Position numbers and translations under genes: made by a program. A DNA stretch of 64,000 nt from the NCBI RefSeq assembly GCF_000010325.1, contig NC_009662.1, positions 1,632,501 through 1,696,500 of the forward strand. Reading direction: 5' to 3'. Source of the DNA: Nitratiruptor sp. SB155-2. GTDB taxonomy: Bacteria > Campylobacterota > Campylobacteria > Campylobacterales > Nitratiruptoraceae. This document shows, in pieces, positions 55,096 to 64,000 of the stretch. The notes beneath the pieces are model-generated. The model worked only from the letters and a program-made list of their open reading frames with translations. It was not told the origin of the DNA and searched no databases. How positions within the stretch are numbered: the stretch's first letter is position 1; each line of letters starts with the position of its first letter.

Positions 55096-55173
55096 CGGGG
55101 TGTGGCGCAGCCTGGTTAGCGTGCTACCTTGGGGTGGTAGAGGTCGCGGGTTCAAATCCCGCCACTCCGACCA
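55096..55173 (+). tRNA. tRNA-Pro (anticodon GGG)
   Basis: The 78-nt gene folds as a complete cloverleaf: acceptor CGGGGTG/CACTCCG, D stem GCGC/GCGT, anticodon stem CTACC/GGTAG with loop TTGGGGT (anticodon GGG at 55131-55133, G37), T arm GCGGG-TTCAAAT-CCCGC, and an encoded CCA end. The GC-rich acceptor is typical of tRNA-Pro. The base composition drops sharply after its 3' end, and tRNA 3' ends are common integration sites. Confidence 0.97.
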
Positions 55174-55244
55174 TTGATGACTTTCCAATAATCCCTATAA
55201 ATTCGAATTTTATAAACCTTTTTAAGGAAATGAACAAATCACAT

Positions 55245-55504: not shown

Positions 55505-57568
55505 ATGTCATTAAAAGAACTTAATTTTAGATCCTCCTATAATACCTCTGAATCAGATATCATAAAAGATTTTTTCACTCCTGCATTTGAAAATTCCACT
55601 AGATACAAAAGGGGTGTTGGATATTTTACTTCTGGATGGCTATCTCAAAACGCAAAAGGTTTGGCAAAATTTATTGAAAATGGCGGAAAAGCACAATATA
55701 TAACAAGTCCAATATTAGACAAAAATGATTTAGAAGCCCTACAAGGAAAATTTGACCCATCTCTATTGGATAAAAAAATATTAAAAAATATAAGTGTTTT
55801 AGAAAAAGAATTAGAAGAAAATACGAAGAATCTCCTTGGATGGTTAGTTTATGATGGCCTATTAGAGTTTAGATTTGCTATACCTAGGTATAATTTAGAA
55901 GGCGGTGATTTTCATGATAAATTTGGCGTATTTATCGATGAAGAAAATAATATGGTCGCATTTATAGGCTCCATAAATGAAACTATGAAAGGGTTTTTAA
56001 ATTATGAATCCATAACAGTTTTTTGTTTATGGAAAGATGATACTAGTAAAAATTTTTGTATAGAAACTTACAAGAGATTTCAAAATCTTTGGGAAAATAA
56101 AGACCCTAATATTATGGTTTATGAAATAAATGATATTATAAAAAACAAACTATTTGAATTGAAGTCTTATTCTAGACCATACAAAAAACCTTCCCAAAAC
56201 TTAATGATAGCTAATTACTTGCCTTCTATACCACCTGATTTCGAAATAAGAACATATCAAAAAGAAGCTATTAAAGCTTGGCTGAAAAATAATGGTAGAG
56301 GCATTCTATCAATGGCCACAGGGTCAGGGAAAACCAAAACAGCTTTATATACAATTGTGAAATTATTAGAAGAAATAAAAAGTTTACCAGTACTAATTGT
56401 TGTACCATATAAACATTTATTGGAACAATGGTATATTGAAGCAAAAGAATTCAATATTGAATTGATTAGATGTAATTCTGATTATCCAAATTGGCAAAAA
56501 GAGTTATCCACAAAAATTACTAATAACTTATTAAATAAAAAACCAGTTTTTGCAATCACAACTAATAATACATATAAAAGCAAGAAATTTCAAAGCCTCA
56601 TTAATAGATTAAATAATCTATTTCTTATTGTTGATGAAGTCCATAATTTTGGAAGTAAAGAAATAAAAGAAAACTATCTCGATAATGCAAAATTTAGATT
56701 AGGATTATCAGCAACGCCCCAGCGACACTTTGATGAAGAAGGTACAAAAGCATTATTAAATTATTTTGGCAAAATAGTTTATGAATTTACATTAAAAGAA
56801 GCAATAGATAATGGTTATTTAACTGAATATTATTATCATCCTATTTTTGTTTATTTAACTGAAGAAGAAGAAAAAGAATATATAGCCCTTTCTGAAAAAA
56901 TATCTCAATTTCGTCCCATCAATGAAGACAATGAAGAAAATATTCCTGGTTTTTTAAAAATGTTACTTATCAAACGAGCAAAAATCATTGAATCTGCACA
57001 AAATAAAATACACAAATTAAAAGAAATATTAACAAAAAATAATTTAATTAATTCCAAAAAAAATCTTTTTTATGTATCATCAGAAATTGAATACAAAAAT
57101 GATAAAAAAATTCGTAATATTGATAAATATACAAACCTTTTAAGAAGTCTAGGCATGAATGTTGAACCATTTACCGCATTAGAAGATAAATGGCAAAGAA
57201 ATAATCTAATAATGAAACTAGAAAATGATTTAATTGATGGCCTAGTGGCTATAAAATGTCTTGATGAGGGTGTTGATATACCTAGTGTGAGGAGAGCTTT
57301 TATTTTATCAAGTAGCTCTAATCCAAAAGAGTTTATACAACGAAGAGGCCGTATTTTAAGAAAAAGTCCTGGCAAAAAATATGCACATATTTATGATTTT
57401 TTGGTTATACCTCGAGGAGCAGATATTGAAAATTTTGAATATGAGAGAAAATATTTAGAAAGAGAGTTGAGAAGATTTCAAGAATTTGCCAAATTAGCCA
57501 AAAATTCTTTAGAAGCAGAATCTCAAATATTTGAAATTAAAAAGCAATACAATTTATTACATATATAA
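55505..57568 (+). CDS. PLD-nuclease/superfamily 2 helicase fusion, dnd-linked restriction protein
   Basis: The 687 residues join two parts. About 1-220 is a phospholipase D-like nuclease domain with a single HxK site (H137, K139) followed by the G155-S-x-N158-E159 motif. About 240-640 is a superfamily 2 helicase: Walker A ATGSGKT (271-277), DEVH (377-380), SAT (402-404) and motif VI QRRGRILR (612-619). One HxK per chain suggests a dimeric nuclease. Helicases of this kind have been described as DNA phosphorothioation-linked restriction enzymes, which fits the facing dndD/dndE genes; that family match is from memory. ATG 55505 is chosen over 55457, which lies in the promoter. It is the first gene of the five-gene operon. 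Confidence 0.8.
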   Translation: MSLKELNFRSSYNTSESDIIKDFFTPAFENSTRYKRGVGYFTSGWLSQNAKGLAKFIENGGKAQYITSPILDKNDLEALQGKFDPSLLDKKILKNISVLEKELEENTKNLLGWLVYDGLLEFRFAIPRYNLEGGDFHDKFGVFIDEENNMVAFIGSINETMKGFLNYESITVFCLWKDDTSKNFCIETYKRFQNLWENKDPNIMVYEINDIIKNKLFELKSYSRPYKKPSQNLMIANYLPSIPPDFEIRTYQKEAIKAWLKNNGRGILSMATGSGKTKTALYTIVKLLEEIKSLPVLIVVPYKHLLEQWYIEAKEFNIELIRCNSDYPNWQKELSTKITNNLLNKKPVFAITTNNTYKSKKFQSLINRLNNLFLIVDEVHNFGSKEIKENYLDNAKFRLGLSATPQRHFDEEGTKALLNYFGKIVYEFTLKEAIDNGYLTEYYYHPIFVYLTEEEEKEYIALSEKISQFRPINEDNEENIPGFLKMLLIKRAKIIESAQNKIHKLKEILTKNNLINSKKNLFYVSSEIEYKNDKKIRNIDKYTNLLRSLGMNVEPFTALEDKWQRNNLIMKLENDLIDGLVAIKCLDEGVDIPSVRRAFILSSSSNPKEFIQRRGRILRKSPGKKYAHIYDFLVIPRGADIENFEYERKYLERELRRFQEFAKLAKNSLEAESQIFEIKKQYNLLHI

Positions 57569-57578
57569 AGGATATCAA

Positions 57579-57722
57579 ATGAATGAAAATAAAGAAAAAA
57601 ATAAAGAATTACTAAAAGAAATTAAACGAGAAATTTTAAAAATGGAAAAAGAAAATTTATATATTCATAAATCTGGATTAAAAGAAAAAATTATTAGACT
57701 TATTAAGGCAAGGACAAAATAA
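57579..57722 (+). CDS. 47-residue basic helical protein, unknown function
   Basis: This tiny gene lies between the helicase and the ATPase. It has a good ribosome site (AAAGGA, 6 nt before ATG 57579) and its TAA overlaps the next ATG (TAATG), so it is almost certainly translated. The product is almost entirely charged helix, rich in Lys and Glu, with a basic C-terminus (IIRLIKARTK). No membrane segment or Cys is present. It could be a small partner or DNA-contacting subunit of the ATPase. I do not recognise it. A longer frame beginning at 57531 lies inside the helicase gene. Confidence 0.65.
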   Translation: MNENKEKNKELLKEIKREILKMEKENLYIHKSGLKEKIIRLIKARTK

Positions 57723-59776
57723 TGTTTTTGAAAACATTGGTTTTAGAAGATTTTAGACAATTTAAAGATAGACAAATTTTAAATTTAACAACAACAAATG
57801 AAAAGAATATAGTTTTAATTCATGGTGAAAATGGAGCGGGAAAAACTACGTTGCTCGAAGCTTTTTCCTGGTGTTTATATGGAGACTTGGCTCTTACGAA
57901 TCCAAATAATATTTTAAATGAATATGTCTTTTTTAATATGGGTGAAAAAGAATCAAAAATTGCTAGAGTCTCACTATTATTTTCTGATAAAAAAAGAGAA
58001 TATATTGTTTCAAGAAGCGTAAAAGTAACAAATATAGATAATAAACAATATTGGACAAAAAATGATATAACACTAGAAATGACTGTAAATGGACAAAAAA
58101 TTAGTAATCCTCAAGATACAATAAAAAAAATCTTAAGTAAGGAACTACGAAAATATTTCTTTTTTGATGGAGAAAGAATTGATAGACTTGCAAGACCAGA
58201 AAGCAAAAAAGATATCCAGCAAGGTATCAAATATATTATGGGTCTAGAAGTTTATTCTAATGCTATTAGACATCTAAAAGAAGTAAAAAAAGAGTTAAAT
58301 AAAGAATTAACAACTATTATGGAAAAAGAATCTCCTGCCGAAATTTCACCAGTCCAAAAAAAAGAAGAAATTTTAGAACAAATAGATCAACTAAAAACTG
58401 CTATAAAAAATCATCAGGAATTTGAAGTTCAAAAAGAAGAAGAAAAAAAATTAATAAGCCAAGAGCTTGAAAAACATAAAGAAATAGAAAATATAGAAAG
58501 AGAAAGACAGAGAATTGAAACTGATCTTGAACAAGCAAATGAACAAATTCAAAAAATCGAAAAAAAAGAAAAATCTTTTATCAGCAAAAATGCATATCTA
58601 GCTATATCCAATAATTTATTAGAGAAAATAAAAAAATATCTAGATAAAAAAAGAGAGAAAGGAGAGCTTCCTTCTGGAATTAGAGAACAATTCATCCATG
58701 ACTTGCTTGAAAAAGGTGAATGTATATGCGGTACAAAGTTAGAAGTTGGCGATTTTCATTATGAGCATTTAAAAAAACTTCTCGAAAATACTATCAAAAA
58801 AAACATAGAAGATAATTTTATAAATATAAGCGGTATCTTGGAAAATGTTATTGGTTATACAGATGAATTTAAAAAATTATTGGAAGAGTTGCATCAAGAA
58901 AAAAATGAATTAATAAAACAAAGAGATTCTTTGGAACAACAATATTTAGAAATCAAAGACAAACTCAAAAATAGTGATAATATAAATATAAAAGAATTAG
59001 GTAAAAGATTAGAATATGTAGAAAATAAAATAAAAGAGATAATGGAAACTCTTGGTGAAAAGAAAGAAAAACTGAATAGGTTATATAAAGAGTTGCAAGA
59101 AGTAGAAAATGAAATACAAAAACATCAAACATTAAATGAAAAAATTGCATTAGCAGAAGAAAGAGTGGAAATTGCTCAAAATATTTTAGATGAATTGGAA
59201 TATGAATATGAGTTTTTAACTAGAGAAGTAAAAAATAAACTTTCTGAAAAAGTTGGTGAAGTATTTAATTCAATAATCCGGGGCGATTATAGTGCAGAAA
59301 TCAATCATAATTTTGAACTAAAGGTATATAAAAATATTGATGGAAACAAAATACCTGTAGGAACATCAACAGGAGAAAATCAAATCGCAAGCCTTTCATT
59401 TATTGGTTCTTTAGTCTATATAGCAAAAAAATGGGATGAAGAAAATCAAGGTGATATTTTTACTGGTGCTGGTGTTTACCCTATAGTTATGGACTCTCCT
59501 TTTGGTTCTCTTGATCCAGAATATAGAGATAGTATTACAAAAAATCTACAAAAGCTATCTCCGCAAATTATAGTCATGCTATCAAAATCACAATGGAGCA
59601 AAGAGGTTGAACAAAATCTAGCGCCATACATAAATCATGAATACATACTGGTATATCATAATCCAAAATATAAAGAATTATCCAATGATTATAAAACTAT
59701 TAACATAGATGGGCAGGAACATCCTTTGGAAGTTGATTCTGAATATGAATATACTGAAATTAGAAGGATCAAATAA
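57722..59776 (+). CDS. SMC/Rad50-like ATPase, DndD-related
   Basis: The 684 residues have an N-terminal ABC half with Walker A GENGAGKTT (35-43), then the FFFDGERID block (146-154) typical of DndD. Two coiled-coil arms (about 195-330 and 375-500) flank a hook with C334-x-C336 (ECICGTKL). The C-terminal half has the signature STGENQ (549-554) and Walker B YPIVMD (586-591). It clamps DNA by analogy with Rad50 and DndD. It is distinct from the dndD on the opposite strand. Its place between a nuclease-helicase and a DUF262 protein suggests it belongs to the restriction arm. The AAGGA site is 7 nt before the ATG. Confidence 0.85.
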   Translation: MFLKTLVLEDFRQFKDRQILNLTTTNEKNIVLIHGENGAGKTTLLEAFSWCLYGDLALTNPNNILNEYVFFNMGEKESKIARVSLLFSDKKREYIVSRSVKVTNIDNKQYWTKNDITLEMTVNGQKISNPQDTIKKILSKELRKYFFFDGERIDRLARPESKKDIQQGIKYIMGLEVYSNAIRHLKEVKKELNKELTTIMEKESPAEISPVQKKEEILEQIDQLKTAIKNHQEFEVQKEEEKKLISQELEKHKEIENIERERQRIETDLEQANEQIQKIEKKEKSFISKNAYLAISNNLLEKIKKYLDKKREKGELPSGIREQFIHDLLEKGECICGTKLEVGDFHYEHLKKLLENTIKKNIEDNFINISGILENVIGYTDEFKKLLEELHQEKNELIKQRDSLEQQYLEIKDKLKNSDNINIKELGKRLEYVENKIKEIMETLGEKKEKLNRLYKELQEVENEIQKHQTLNEKIALAEERVEIAQNILDELEYEYEFLTREVKNKLSEKVGEVFNSIIRGDYSAEINHNFELKVYKNIDGNKIPVGTSTGENQIASLSFIGSLVYIAKKWDEENQGDIFTGAGVYPIVMDSPFGSLDPEYRDSITKNLQKLSPQIIVMLSKSQWSKEVEQNLAPYINHEYILVYHNPKYKELSNDYKTINIDGQEHPLEVDSEYEYTEIRRIK

Positions 59777-60237
59777 TGAGAGATAGAATATTCGCAGACC
59801 AAGATAAAAGATATCTATTTGAAAAACTATGTTTAGATAAAAAAGAGAACATTTTTAACTCTAATAAAGATTTAATATTATTCGCTGCAGCTTTAGGCTA
59901 CAAACATAATCAAAAATTTCCATTGAAAAAAAGAGACACCGAAATACCTCTTGCTGTTTTTCAAAGAGACAAAAAAGATTTTTATTTCATAGATATAATA
60001 GCTTTAGGAGATTTGGAAGATATCTCAATTTTGGATTGGGATAATGGTGATATTGTTGATAAAAAACTCGGGATTTTTGAAGAATACGCAAATGCAGGTC
60101 TTGTTATAATTGAACATAAACTTTTTCGAGAAAGTGGAGATGTGTATGACAATTTACTACAATTAATTTATAAAGAGATAAATGAAAAAGAAGAAGATGA
60201 AGAATTTAACTTATCAGATTTGATAGAGAAAATTTAA
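59776..60237 (+). CDS. Small dnd-associated protein (protein 4-like)
   Basis: This 153-residue acidic protein begins MRDRIFADQDKRYLFEK and contains NKDLILFAAALGYKHNQKFPL, which resembles the short family described as 'dnd system-associated protein 4' as I remember it. No catalytic motif is apparent and there is no signal peptide. Its ATG overlaps the ATPase stop (TAATG), so the two are probably made in step. The C-terminus is very acidic (EKEEDEEFN). An HMM search would confirm or reject the family. Confidence 0.65.
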   Translation: MRDRIFADQDKRYLFEKLCLDKKENIFNSNKDLILFAAALGYKHNQKFPLKKRDTEIPLAVFQRDKKDFYFIDIIALGDLEDISILDWDNGDIVDKKLGIFEEYANAGLVIIEHKLFRESGDVYDNLLQLIYKEINEKEEDEEFNLSDLIEKI

Positions 60238-60249
60238 GAGGGAGAAAAG

Positions 60250-62013
60250 ATGAAAGGCGGATTAAATTATAACGAAACGAAATTTGTTGATACCAATGTT
60301 AAAAAATTAGTCGATTTGATTACAAATTTAAATTTAACTGTTCCTCCACATCAAAGAGATTATTCTTGGGAAAGAGAAGAAATAGAAGAATTTTTAGATG
60401 ATGTAGATTATTTAATGTCTCAAGATTTTAACAGTATTGAGGCTTTACCTCATTTTTTAGGAGCATTCGTTTTCATAGAAAACAATGAAGACAAAAGTTA
60501 TGAAATAATTGATGGTCAACAGAGAATTACGACTACAATGCTATATTTTAATGCTATAAGACTTTTAGCAAAAAAATATATAAAAGGTGAAGATATTTCA
60601 ACAATTCTTGCAAGGTGTCATGAATATATATATAAAAGCCGTCCAGGCCAAGAAGTTAAGTTAAGATTGAAACTTGGCAGGGCAGATGATTTTTTTAATA
60701 AGCTTTTAAAAGCTGATAAAATTGAAGATATTAGTAAAATTTTTAATTCTTTATCTAAAAAAAGAGATGTAGACATAAAACTTTATAATGCATTTGAAAT
60801 TATTTATTCTCATATAGAATCTAATATTAAAGATGATTTAGTATCTAAAAAATTATTAAAATATATTGAAGCAGTCCAAACTATGATGGTAGCTATTGAG
60901 ATAGTAGTCCAACAACCAGGCATTGCATATATTATATTCGAGACATTAAACGCAAGAGGAAAAGAATTAAGTGCAGCTAATTTGATTAAAAATGAACTTC
61001 TAAAATATGCAGAGAAACAAAATAGTTTTGATAATGTGTTAAATATTTGGTCAATGATGGTAGAGGAAATTACTCAATATGAAAAAGCTGATATTACAGA
61101 TTTTTTGATAAATTCTTATTGGTCTAATTTTAAATATATTCCTCAAACAAGTCTTTTTAGTGGAGTTAAAGAACTTTTAGAAGAAATTACAGCAAAAGAG
61201 TATGCCGAAACTATAGAAAATGATTATTTAAATTACACAAAAATAGCTGGATTTAATAAAAGTGTAGATTCTAAATTTTCTAAAAAAGTTATTTCGACAT
61301 TAGAAGATCTAAACGATTTTTTGAATATAAGAAGGATTTATCCATTATTATTAGCTGGTGCATATAAATTAGATAATAATGATTTTGAAAAGTTAGTAAT
61401 AAAAAGTGTAAATTTTGCTTTTAGATATAAAACAGTGCTTAATAAATCTGCAGATACATTGGTAAAACTTTCTTCAAATTTGGCAATTAAACTTAGAAAA
61501 AATGAAATTACTTTAAATGAGATTTATGAAATTTTTAGAAAAGAAGCAAGTGATAGTGATTTTAAAACAGCTTTTACTGATTTTAGGCCAGGAACTAATA
61601 AGCTTGGATTTTATGTTATTAGAAAGATTGAAGATTATTTATCTCAAGGTCAAGGTGTTAAAGTTTTAGACCAATCTCCAAATCAACATCTAGAACATAT
61701 TCTTCCCAAAAGACCTACACAAATAGATTGGCCTAATATTTTTAATGGTGATGAAATTGACGATAGATTTAATATTTATGTCAATAAAATCGGTAACTTA
61801 ACAGTCTTAGAAAAAGATATAAATCAATATATAAAAAACAAATCATTTAGTTTTAAAAATTCTAATGATGAAAAAAAAGATTATCAACATTCGGTTTTAA
61901 AATTACCTAAAAAAATTCAAAATTATTTAGTAGATAATAAATGGAATTTCGAATCTATTGATAAAAGAGGAGAGGATCTAGCTAAATTAGCTGTTGACGT
62001 TTGGGCTCTTTAA
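60250..62013 (+). CDS. DUF262-DUF1524 nuclease, SspE/GmrSD-like
   Basis: The 587 residues have an N-terminal DUF262 ParB-like NTPase domain with PPHQRDYSW (32-40) and DGQQR (88-92), a helical middle, and a C-terminal DUF1524 HNH-like nuclease with E482-H483-I-L-P486 and the IGNL...N region (514-525). This is the layout of SspE, which senses phosphorothioate DNA and nicks phage DNA, and of GmrSD, which cuts modified DNA. It is likely the effector or modification sensor of the island. The ribosome site is AGAGGGAG. The 3' end overlaps dndE by 27 nt on the opposite strand. Confidence 0.85.
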   Translation: MKGGLNYNETKFVDTNVKKLVDLITNLNLTVPPHQRDYSWEREEIEEFLDDVDYLMSQDFNSIEALPHFLGAFVFIENNEDKSYEIIDGQQRITTTMLYFNAIRLLAKKYIKGEDISTILARCHEYIYKSRPGQEVKLRLKLGRADDFFNKLLKADKIEDISKIFNSLSKKRDVDIKLYNAFEIIYSHIESNIKDDLVSKKLLKYIEAVQTMMVAIEIVVQQPGIAYIIFETLNARGKELSAANLIKNELLKYAEKQNSFDNVLNIWSMMVEEITQYEKADITDFLINSYWSNFKYIPQTSLFSGVKELLEEITAKEYAETIENDYLNYTKIAGFNKSVDSKFSKKVISTLEDLNDFLNIRRIYPLLLAGAYKLDNNDFEKLVIKSVNFAFRYKTVLNKSADTLVKLSSNLAIKLRKNEITLNEIYEIFRKEASDSDFKTAFTDFRPGTNKLGFYVIRKIEDYLSQGQGVKVLDQSPNQHLEHILPKRPTQIDWPNIFNGDEIDDRFNIYVNKIGNLTVLEKDINQYIKNKSFSFKNSNDEKKDYQHSVLKLPKKIQNYLVDNKWNFESIDKRGEDLAKLAVDVWAL

Positions 62014-62409
62014 AAACTCTTCTTTAATCCACTCAAAGATATCACTATTTTCATTTAGTGAAGAGGCTAAAATTTGAAAGCCTCTTTCACAGTGATATTC
62101 AAGTCTTTTTTCAAATTCTTTTTCATTTTTAAGTTGAACATTATCTGCATTTGCTGCTATTACTGCTATTATATCATTATAGTCACCTTGCTCGCCTGAT
62201 AACTCAAGTTTACCTTTACCAGTAATGACCTCAAGATTATAAACTTTTCCACCAGAAAAATCTATTTTTTTTGTCACATCTAGTGGTTTGTTAAGTGATA
62301 GAGAAACAAAAATTGCAAAACGAATAGTTATCCACTTTGGTTCATTTTCAAATCCTAAAAGTTTTGCTATTTTAGGTATCTGTTTTTCAACAAAAGAAGT
62401 AGTTCTCAA
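61987..62409 (-). CDS. dndE: DndE-like DNA phosphorothioation protein
   Basis: The 140-residue protein follows dndD, as dndE does in known clusters. The IRFAIFVSLSLNKP segment, the VYNLEVITGKG strand and the EYHCERGFQIL segment match the DndE pattern I remember (R-I-A-x-x-L-S-L; H-x-x-R-G). DndE forms tetramers that bind nicked DNA during sulphur insertion. This version is divergent and somewhat longer than the usual 110-130 residues. ATG 62409 overlaps the dndD stop by 4 nt. No DndA or IscS-like desulphurase is in the window. Confidence 0.75.
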   Translation of the reverse strand: MRTTSFVEKQIPKIAKLLGFENEPKWITIRFAIFVSLSLNKPLDVTKKIDFSGGKVYNLEVITGKGKLELSGEQGDYNDIIAVIAANADNVQLKNEKEFEKRLEYHCERGFQILASSLNENSDIFEWIKEEFLKSPNVNS

Positions 62410-64000
62410 GACATTATCTCCAATTTTGGCTGATATTTAAATTTTTGAAAAATATATTTATTTCCAATTTTTTCTACAGAAGTTGCGGAACCATTGTTAT
62501 GTAATATAAAAGTCTCTGAAATTAAAGGCTCAAGATTTTTAAAAGCTGGATTTCTTAATTCGCTTGGTGTAGGCAAAATAATAACTTGACTAGCTGCATT
62601 GGGATAAAATTTATTTAGTATCAAGGATTGATTTTTATCATCAAGTCTTCCTAGGGGGGTATCTATAATCATTGGTATATCTTGAGATATAAATTGAGAT
62701 ATTCCCCAAATTAAAGCTGTCGCAATAATCTGTTTTTGTCCAGAGGAACTTGACAAAATATCTAATGGGTTATTATTTTTATCCACAAGATTGATATGAA
62801 AATCATCATCTAAAATAATCCTATCTGCTTCGTAATTTTCTTTTTTTAGCATTTTAAATTTTTCATTTATTGTTTTTTCTAATTGTGCTCTTTTTTCTTT
62901 TTTTATTTCTTGTTTTATGAATTTTACTACTTCTATGATTCCATTTAATGTTTCTATCTTTTTCATTACTATAGAGTTATTAAATTCTCTAACACTATAT
63001 TGCCCAATCTCTCTTTTTAAACTTTTTATTTCAGTATTTAATTTCTCTATTTTTTGATTTAAGTTTTCAATTTTTTCTTTTTGTTTGCCTATCATCTGAG
63101 ATAAATTATTCAAATTCTGAAGATGAGAATCAAATAGTTCTTTATTATTTTCTTCTACCTTTTTTTCCAAATCAAATATTTCCATCTCTAATAATTTTAT
63201 TTGGTCTTTTGTTTGTGATATTTCATATAATAGTTGAGATATATTGATATGAGGTAAACTATAGAATTGCATTTCTACTTTTAAAGGATCAGCGAATAAA
63301 ACTGATAAATCATCTGATTTAGCTTTAAAAACTTCATCAAAAATCTTTGATATTTTCTCTTTTTCTTCCGATTTGTCTATTTTTGATAGTAACTGCTCTT
63401 TCTTTTTTATTAGAGTTTTTTCATTAATAGATATTCTATCTTGGTAATTTTCTTCTATATCATTTTTAACTCTATTTAACAATTCAGAATTTAATAATAG
63501 TGGCAATTGCAGAAAAGAAATATTTTTGAACTTTATCAATAAATCTTTTAATTTTTCATTTTCTTTTGTTAGCTTTTCTTTTTTTTCATCCAATTGTTTG
63601 GTCAATCTGTTTTTAATATGTTTAATTTTATTATTTAGAAGATTCCTCTCCTTCTCCAAATCCTTAAGAATTTCATTCTCACTGGATAAATCTTTTTCTA
63701 TTTTTTCTAATTCTACTTGCTTCTTTTTGTATTCTTCTTCTAAAAAGTCCAATTTATTTACAATTTCACTATCTAATTCTTCTTTATTTATTTTTCGTGC
63801 TAAAGTTAATGAATCCAAAACAATTTGATCATATATGTTTAAATCTAAAACATCTTCTAACATTTGTTTGAACTCATCATGGCTAAAATCTGCAATAGTT
63901 TGAATTTTTTCTCCATCAAAGAAGAAAAATTTTTGCATATATGGAGAAATTTTTGAATTTATAATATCCTGTGCCTCATCATCTTCAGCAATCAAAATAT
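62406..64000 (-). CDS. dndD: DndD DNA phosphorothioation ATPase, 5' end beyond window
   Basis: This is the C-terminal part (at least 530 residues) of an SMC-like ATPase. Visible are the KFFFFDGEKIQ block, long coiled-coil arms and the ABC signature SSSSGQKQ, followed by Walker B IPMIIDTPLGRLDD. The N-terminal Walker A must lie beyond 64,000. DndD provides ATPase or nicking activity during phosphorothioate insertion with DndC and DndE. Expected upstream neighbours are dndC and perhaps dndB. The reading frame is open through the last base; the Met near 63,995 is internal, not the start. Confidence 0.85.
   Translation of the reverse strand, partial: ILIAEDDEAQDIINSKISPYMQKFFFFDGEKIQTIADFSHDEFKQMLEDVLDLNIYDQIVLDSLTLARKINKEELDSEIVNKLDFLEEEYKKKQVELEKIEKDLSSENEILKDLEKERNLLNNKIKHIKNRLTKQLDEKKEKLTKENEKLKDLLIKFKNISFLQLPLLLNSELLNRVKNDIEENYQDRISINEKTLIKKKEQLLSKIDKSEEKEKISKIFDEVFKAKSDDLSVLFADPLKVEMQFYSLPHINISQLLYEISQTKDQIKLLEMEIFDLEKKVEENNKELFDSHLQNLNNLSQMIGKQKEKIENLNQKIEKLNTEIKSLKREIGQYSVREFNNSIVMKKIETLNGIIEVVKFIKQEIKKEKRAQLEKTINEKFKMLKKENYEADRIILDDDFHINLVDKNNNPLDILSSSSGQKQIIATALIWGISQFISQDIPMIIDTPLGRLDDKNQSLILNKFYPNAASQVIILPTPSELRNPAFKNLEPLISETFILHNNGSATSVEKIGNKYIFQKFKYQPKLEIMS

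Follow-up and report, generated by a model that had tools for sequence, protein, structure and literature searches.

A pbeC gene in a DndCDE-PbeABCD island of Nitratiruptor sp. SB155-2, encoding a CxC-clade ABC-ATPase and old paralogue of DndD

Results

Two facing operons on an integrative element

The stretch of DNA that was analysed (the window, 64,000 nucleotides from Nitratiruptor sp. SB155-2) holds a pbe operon that faces the genes dndC-dndD-dndE, part of which lies beyond the window and is given by its position in the genome (G000:C1). The features are listed below, with the evidence for each in brackets.

55096..55173, plus strand: tRNA-Pro (GGG), into which the island is integrated (ARAGORN)
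55151..55178, plus strand: left copy of the 28-bp attachment repeat, at the 3' end of tRNA-Pro (exact repeat)
55505..57568, plus strand: pbeA, HKD/PLD nuclease and SF2 helicase, 687 aa (PADLOC PbeA, 789 bits; TIGR04095, 643 bits)
57579..57722, plus strand: pbeB, small protein, 47 aa (best match of a PbeB profile from other genomes)
57722..59776, plus strand: pbeC, CxC ABC-ATPase, 684 aa (PADLOC PbeC, 1420 bits; motifs, tree, model)
59776..60237, plus strand: pbeD, putative DndE-like partner, 153 aa (TIGR04062, 173 bits; fold model; fold matches to DndE)
60250..62013, plus strand: DndI-like protein, DUF262 and DUF1524 HNH, 587 aa (Pfam GmrSD_N, GmrSD_C)
61987..62409, minus strand: dndE, 140 aa (PF08870, 69 bits)
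62406..64000 and on to G000:C1:1696894, minus strand: dndD, 662 aa (TIGR03185; clusters with DndD in the tree)
G000:C1:1696884-1698203, minus strand: dndC (TIGR03183, over cut-off)

Downstream of tRNA-Pro the GC content drops from about 0.42 to 0.26, and the right copy of the 28-bp repeat is found 20,407 bases on (G000:C1:1708058-1708085), just past a tyrosine integrase. Both operons ride a 20.4-kb integrative element that sits in tRNA-Pro, has exact 28-bp ends and also holds a MobF relaxase, a TraD/TrwB-type coupling protein and a ParA-like ATPase. The island was absent from the other members of the genus that were searched, and a strong PbeA match (>500 bits) was found in 3 of 298 sampled genomes of the phylum.

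The genes of the pbe operon are tightly packed: the ATG of pbeC overlaps the stop of pbeB by one base, the ATG of pbeD overlaps the stop of pbeC in the same way, and the DndI-like gene follows as the fifth gene. The 3' end of the facing dndE overlaps the operon by 27 bases; dndD exits the window and is whole in the genome (G000:C1:1694906-1696894, 662 aa), where dndB was not found. A sequence-only reading of the window had placed two ATPases on opposite strands about 2.6 kb apart, one of them complete and within a nuclease operon, the other within the dndE operon. This description holds: the ends of pbeC (59776) and dndD (62406) lie 2.63 kb apart, the plus-strand ORF of 684 aa comes after pbeA and pbeB, and the minus-strand order is dndC-dndD-dndE. 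The order pbeA, small gene, pbeC, pbeD also occurs in annotated plasmid records of Ruegeria and Natrinema. The same convergent layout of dndCDE and pbe is seen in another genome of the same taxonomic order (locus L121, G093:C30, 801-13459), with DGQHR/DndB-like and sigma-region-4 genes where the window has the DndI-like gene.

Motifs and predicted structure of PbeC

The ORF at 57722-59776 (plus strand) encodes a Rad50-type ABC ATPase with Walker A GENGAGKT at 35, FFFDGE at 146, the signature TSTGE at 548 and Walker B IVMDSP at 588. The corresponding motifs of the local DndD are GENGFGKT at 34, FFFDGE at 157, SSSGQ at 549 and MIIDTP at 575, i.e. the FFFDGE block, signature and Walker B layout that the two had been said to share were located in both proteins. 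The C-x-C noticed earlier at 334/336 of the plus-strand ATPase is present as well, C51 being the sole other cysteine of the protein; C334 and C336 are invariant in an alignment of 30 relatives, and the local DndD is devoid of a C-x-C.

The PADLOC PbeC model PDLC02715 gives a full-length match of 1420 bits (E=0), a score at which the resemblance is not a matter of chance; a match this close probably means that the model derives from this PbeC or a near copy. The DndD model TIGR03185 scores 186 bits on PbeC, below its cut-off of 245.85.

The predicted structure of PbeC (mean pLDDT 86.6, about 85 at the hook) consists of an ABC head and two long helical arms, with the C-x-C in the turn that links helix 322-331 to helix 345-355, i.e. 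between the arms. Its closest folds are DNA-clamping proteins (Rad50, SMC, Lamassu and Jet proteins), and a search for a solved structure of DndD or PbeC itself turned up only Rad50/SMC-type relatives. In other ABC ATPases hydrolysis is driven by a glutamate directly after the Walker B aspartate. In our alignments this position is Glu in nine SbcC/Rad50 proteins, Ala, Ser, Asn or Thr in PbeC, and Thr or Ser in DndD. Both local ATPases lack the glutamate, so that the two proteins, and the PbeC and DndD families with them, may hydrolyse ATP slowly or use another base. Those Walker-motif passages of PMC10853773 that were available concern other proteins.

Placement of PbeC relative to DndD and Rad50/SbcC

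Relatives on the CxC side were gathered by similarity to PbeC alone (51 loci, plus G093 and G035), the DndD set was defined by TIGR03185, and SbcC/Rad50 proteins from related genomes served as outgroup for a tree of the head domain. Proteins were assigned to the CxC or DndD side by score and not by the C-x-C motif, which occurs in 48 of 48 full-length CxC-side proteins vs 0 of 30 DndDs. In the tree the DndD proteins group together (98/96), as do those of SbcC/Rad50 (100/100); the smallest starred sets that contain the window's PbeC (2, 22 and 28 rows) consist of CxC proteins throughout. Placement of PbeC inside the DndD group was rejected by the AU test (p-AU 8e-10). Strict monophyly of all CxC proteins was neither rejected nor demonstrated (p-AU 0.28), with L046 and L052, two divergent proteins from Bacillota, falling outside the main CxC group.

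The shared motifs, the adjacency of the genes and a similarity that spans the full length (BLASTP E=6e-17 with most of the length aligned; profile-profile comparison with 100% probability and E=1e-62) could speak for a recent duplication of the neighbouring dndD that added a second modification ATPase. The two proteins are, however, only 24% identical, the local DndD instead shares 63% identity with a DndD from a different genome, and a sister relationship between PbeC and the local DndD was rejected at p-AU 8e-6 (224 log-likelihood units). The tree rules a recent duplication out, and we give it next to no probability. The same holds for the view that PbeC is a housekeeping repair ATPase of the Rad50/SbcC type which ended up in the island. 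Rad50 is indeed the nearest solved family in sequence and in fold, and Rad50/SbcC proteins share with PbeC the ABC head, the coiled coil and a cysteine hook at its apex. Nevertheless, they have a CxxC hook rather than C-x-C, longer arms (850-1200 aa in all vs 684 aa for PbeC) and DE after Walker B, where PbeC has no glutamate, and a grouping of PbeC with them was rejected (p-AU 0.005). Mre11/SbcD is the partner of Rad50/SbcC, but no mre11/sbcD adjoins pbeC. Tree and neighbourhood together rule this membership out, and its probability is negligible. The tree test that had been proposed for distinguishing these origins was in this way carried out and went against both.

What PbeC and DndD have in common is the FFFDGE block, the missing glutamate after Walker B and the full-length profile match; DndD differs in having no C-x-C and in pairing with a clade-1 DndE and with DndC, and PbeC falls outside the DndD group. 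A pbeA homologue is found nearby in 54 of 54 loci recovered by PbeC similarity alone, a few of which are cut by contig ends. The tree, the AU rejections and this association support the view that PbeC is an old paralogue, neither a recent duplicate nor a general Rad50, in line with the earlier suggestion of a DndD paralogue in a PLD-helicase operon. Judged from sequence, 57722-59776 is almost certainly the pbeC gene of a DndCDE-PbeABCD island, i.e. a CxC-clade ABC-ATPase and old paralogue of DndD within a pbeA-B-C-D operon extended by a dndI-like gene.

PADLOC also assigns a PbeC label to the local dndD (PDLC02716, 960 bits, 62406-63995). We reject this label as a mix-up because the protein clusters with DndD in the tree and is without C-x-C; DndD proteins are probably included in the PADLOC PbeC set.

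Partners encoded in the pbe operon

For pbeA the start at 55505 was favoured over that of the longest ORF (55457), in which the match to the PADLOC PbeA model begins at residue 19. The TIGR04095 match exceeds its cut-off, and the HxK and GSxN motifs are kept (H153, K155, G171, S172, N174), with H, K, G and N present in 44 of 44 proteins. Helicase-only versions of PbeA occur at seven cyanobacterial loci and one in Natrinema, where the alignment starts at about residue 213-259; no nuclease domain was found in the PbeA stretch of these loci (L006, L007, L009, L010, L031, L032, L038 and L135; cyanobacteria and a Natrinema plasmid). Since some PbeA proteins are without the nuclease domain, a helicase/translocase activity is favoured as the core function, with cutting as an option.

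A PbeB profile made from ORFs of other genomes, the window's own excluded, ranked the window's PbeB first among short ORFs (E 0.0015-0.005), and that of G093 second, weakly (E about 1). The core of the protein in loci L006-L056, across phyla, consists of two helices, the first of them bearing an E-K-x-N-like motif. This detection by profile and the common two-helix core suggest that PbeB is more conserved than would be expected of a protein described as fast-evolving and largely disordered.

PbeD matches the dnd_assoc_4 family (TIGR04062). A sequence search against the PDB gave nothing useful; the model (pLDDT 87.8) shows the order strand, helix, helix, strand, then helices, and in a fold search DndE chains of 5wtu and 4lrv made up 9 of the 11 best PDB matches (TM by target length up to 0.63), at weak E-values of 0.28 or more. 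The modelled fold supports, but does not prove, that PbeD is a DndE.

The DndI-like protein carries DGQQR at 88, and its best PDB match is 9jfl (1.7e-16). It shares with DndI (PMC11662687) the DUF262 domain with DGQQR and the DUF1524 HNH domain, 9jfl being the best PDB relative, but differs in that the PT-sensing Tyr25 of DndI aligns with His34, and in lying in the pbe operon rather than with dndFGH. A search for a DndF-type family gave no match, and neither did its control. Relatives of this gene were seen near pbe genes at loci L052 (Tumebacillus) and L015.

Discussion

Relation to known systems

The closest described counterpart is the DndCDEA-PbeABCD system of Haloterrigena jeotgali, in which defence depends on phosphorothioate (PT), all four pbe genes are needed for full defence and virus replication is blocked with no visible cleavage (PMC6459918). 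Its PbeC is a CxC ABC-ATPase described in PMC10853773 as sister to DndD, with PbeD named as its DndE; it agrees with the protein described here in the ABC head, the coiled coil with C-x-C, the order pbeA-B-C-D and the nearby dnd genes. The window's operon differs in its extra DndI-like gene, in the convergent position of the dnd genes on the other strand and in that no dndA was found. The PT-modification genes dndC, dndD and dndE lie near pbeABCD, a proximity that is common, if not universal, in PbeABCD systems. LmuB of Lamassu and JetC of Wadjet, which are among the nearest folds, are likewise defence ATPases of the SMC/Rad50 kind, each clamping DNA and controlling a partner; their partners are other ones, they have no PT link, and the likeness is one of working principle only.

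A possible clamp on unmarked DNA

Taken as a whole, the explanation that we consider best, and probable, is that of a pbeC gene of a PT defence island whose product forms a zinc-hook clamp that licenses PbeA on unmarked DNA. Two PbeC chains would join via a zinc hook made by their C-x-C loops, and the dimer would form with the DndE-like PbeD an ATP-driven clamp, which would scan DNA for PT sites that lack the mark. DndCDE would mark the host's own DNA, and the clamp would therefore pass over it; on unmarked invading DNA it would load or release PbeA, the helicase/translocase of which, together with the HKD nuclease where present, would block or cut that DNA. PbeB, as a small partner, would couple or restrain the complex. 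That an ATPase-DndE pair scans DNA, in the sense of the "DNA scanner" for restriction suggested earlier, is itself a published hypothesis (PMC10853773).

For the mechanistic part, i.e. a PbeC-PbeD clamp and licensing of PbeA where PT marks are missing, we see roughly an even chance. It may be favoured by the position of the C-x-C in the inter-arm turn of the model, the DndE-like fold of PbeD, the one-base overlaps and the Rad50/SMC/Lamassu/Jet folds. Against it may count that no cleavage was seen in PMC6459918, that some PbeA proteins are without a nuclease domain, that the missing glutamate after Walker B may make hydrolysis slow, that the fold E-values of PbeD are weak and that no cysteine desulfurase was found in the genome to feed DndC. 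Cleavage by Pbe is a disputed matter, PMC10853773 arguing in favour of it.

Instead of sensing or restricting, PbeC-PbeD could also help to make a DNA mark and so form a further modification complex akin to DndD-DndE. The pair does mirror DndD-DndE, and other modifications are raised for some CxC systems in PMC10853773; the operon, however, encodes PbeA and a DndI-like nuclease but lacks any modification enzyme, and pbe genes are needed for exclusion (PMC6459918), which makes a role in mark-making very unlikely.

The sulfur donor

Neither the genome nor 15 further members of the genus (G001-G015) yielded a cysteine desulfurase of the NifS/IscS/DndA type; the best Aminotran_5 matches in the genome resemble other PLP enzymes, and 42 of 44 other relatives have a cysteine desulfurase match (a few of them weak). 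A literature search returned no paper linking Nitratiruptor with PT or cysteine desulfurase. The island might accordingly be read as a silent passenger, intact and idle in a host that offers DndC no sulfur donor, and the lack of dndB as well as the absence of the island from the other genus members searched would fit such a reading. We hold it to be unlikely: all frames and key motifs are intact, including dndC and both attachment repeats, and, in the absence of PT, an unrestrained Pbe or DndI could prove toxic, which PMC11662687 reports for DndI. A further reading, to which we assign a still lower probability, is that the island makes PT DNA in a host whose whole genus is without a recognisable cysteine desulfurase, so that DndC would draw its sulfur elsewhere (e.g. 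from free sulfide), and that one PT mark serves both PbeABCD and a DndI-like nuclease that lost the PT-sensing Tyr.

Significance

By 2024 the literature already covered the CxC clade, its association with PLD-helicases and the idea of a scanner, and the finding as such is already known because family and idea are both in print. The locus is a useful case in that it is small, complete and mobile, and combines Pbe with a DndI-like gene behind a single dndCDE operon. The helicase-only PbeA proteins bear on the dispute whether Pbe cuts DNA or merely blocks replication, and, as the host is seemingly without the usual sulfur donor, the source of the sulfur for DndC becomes a testable question.
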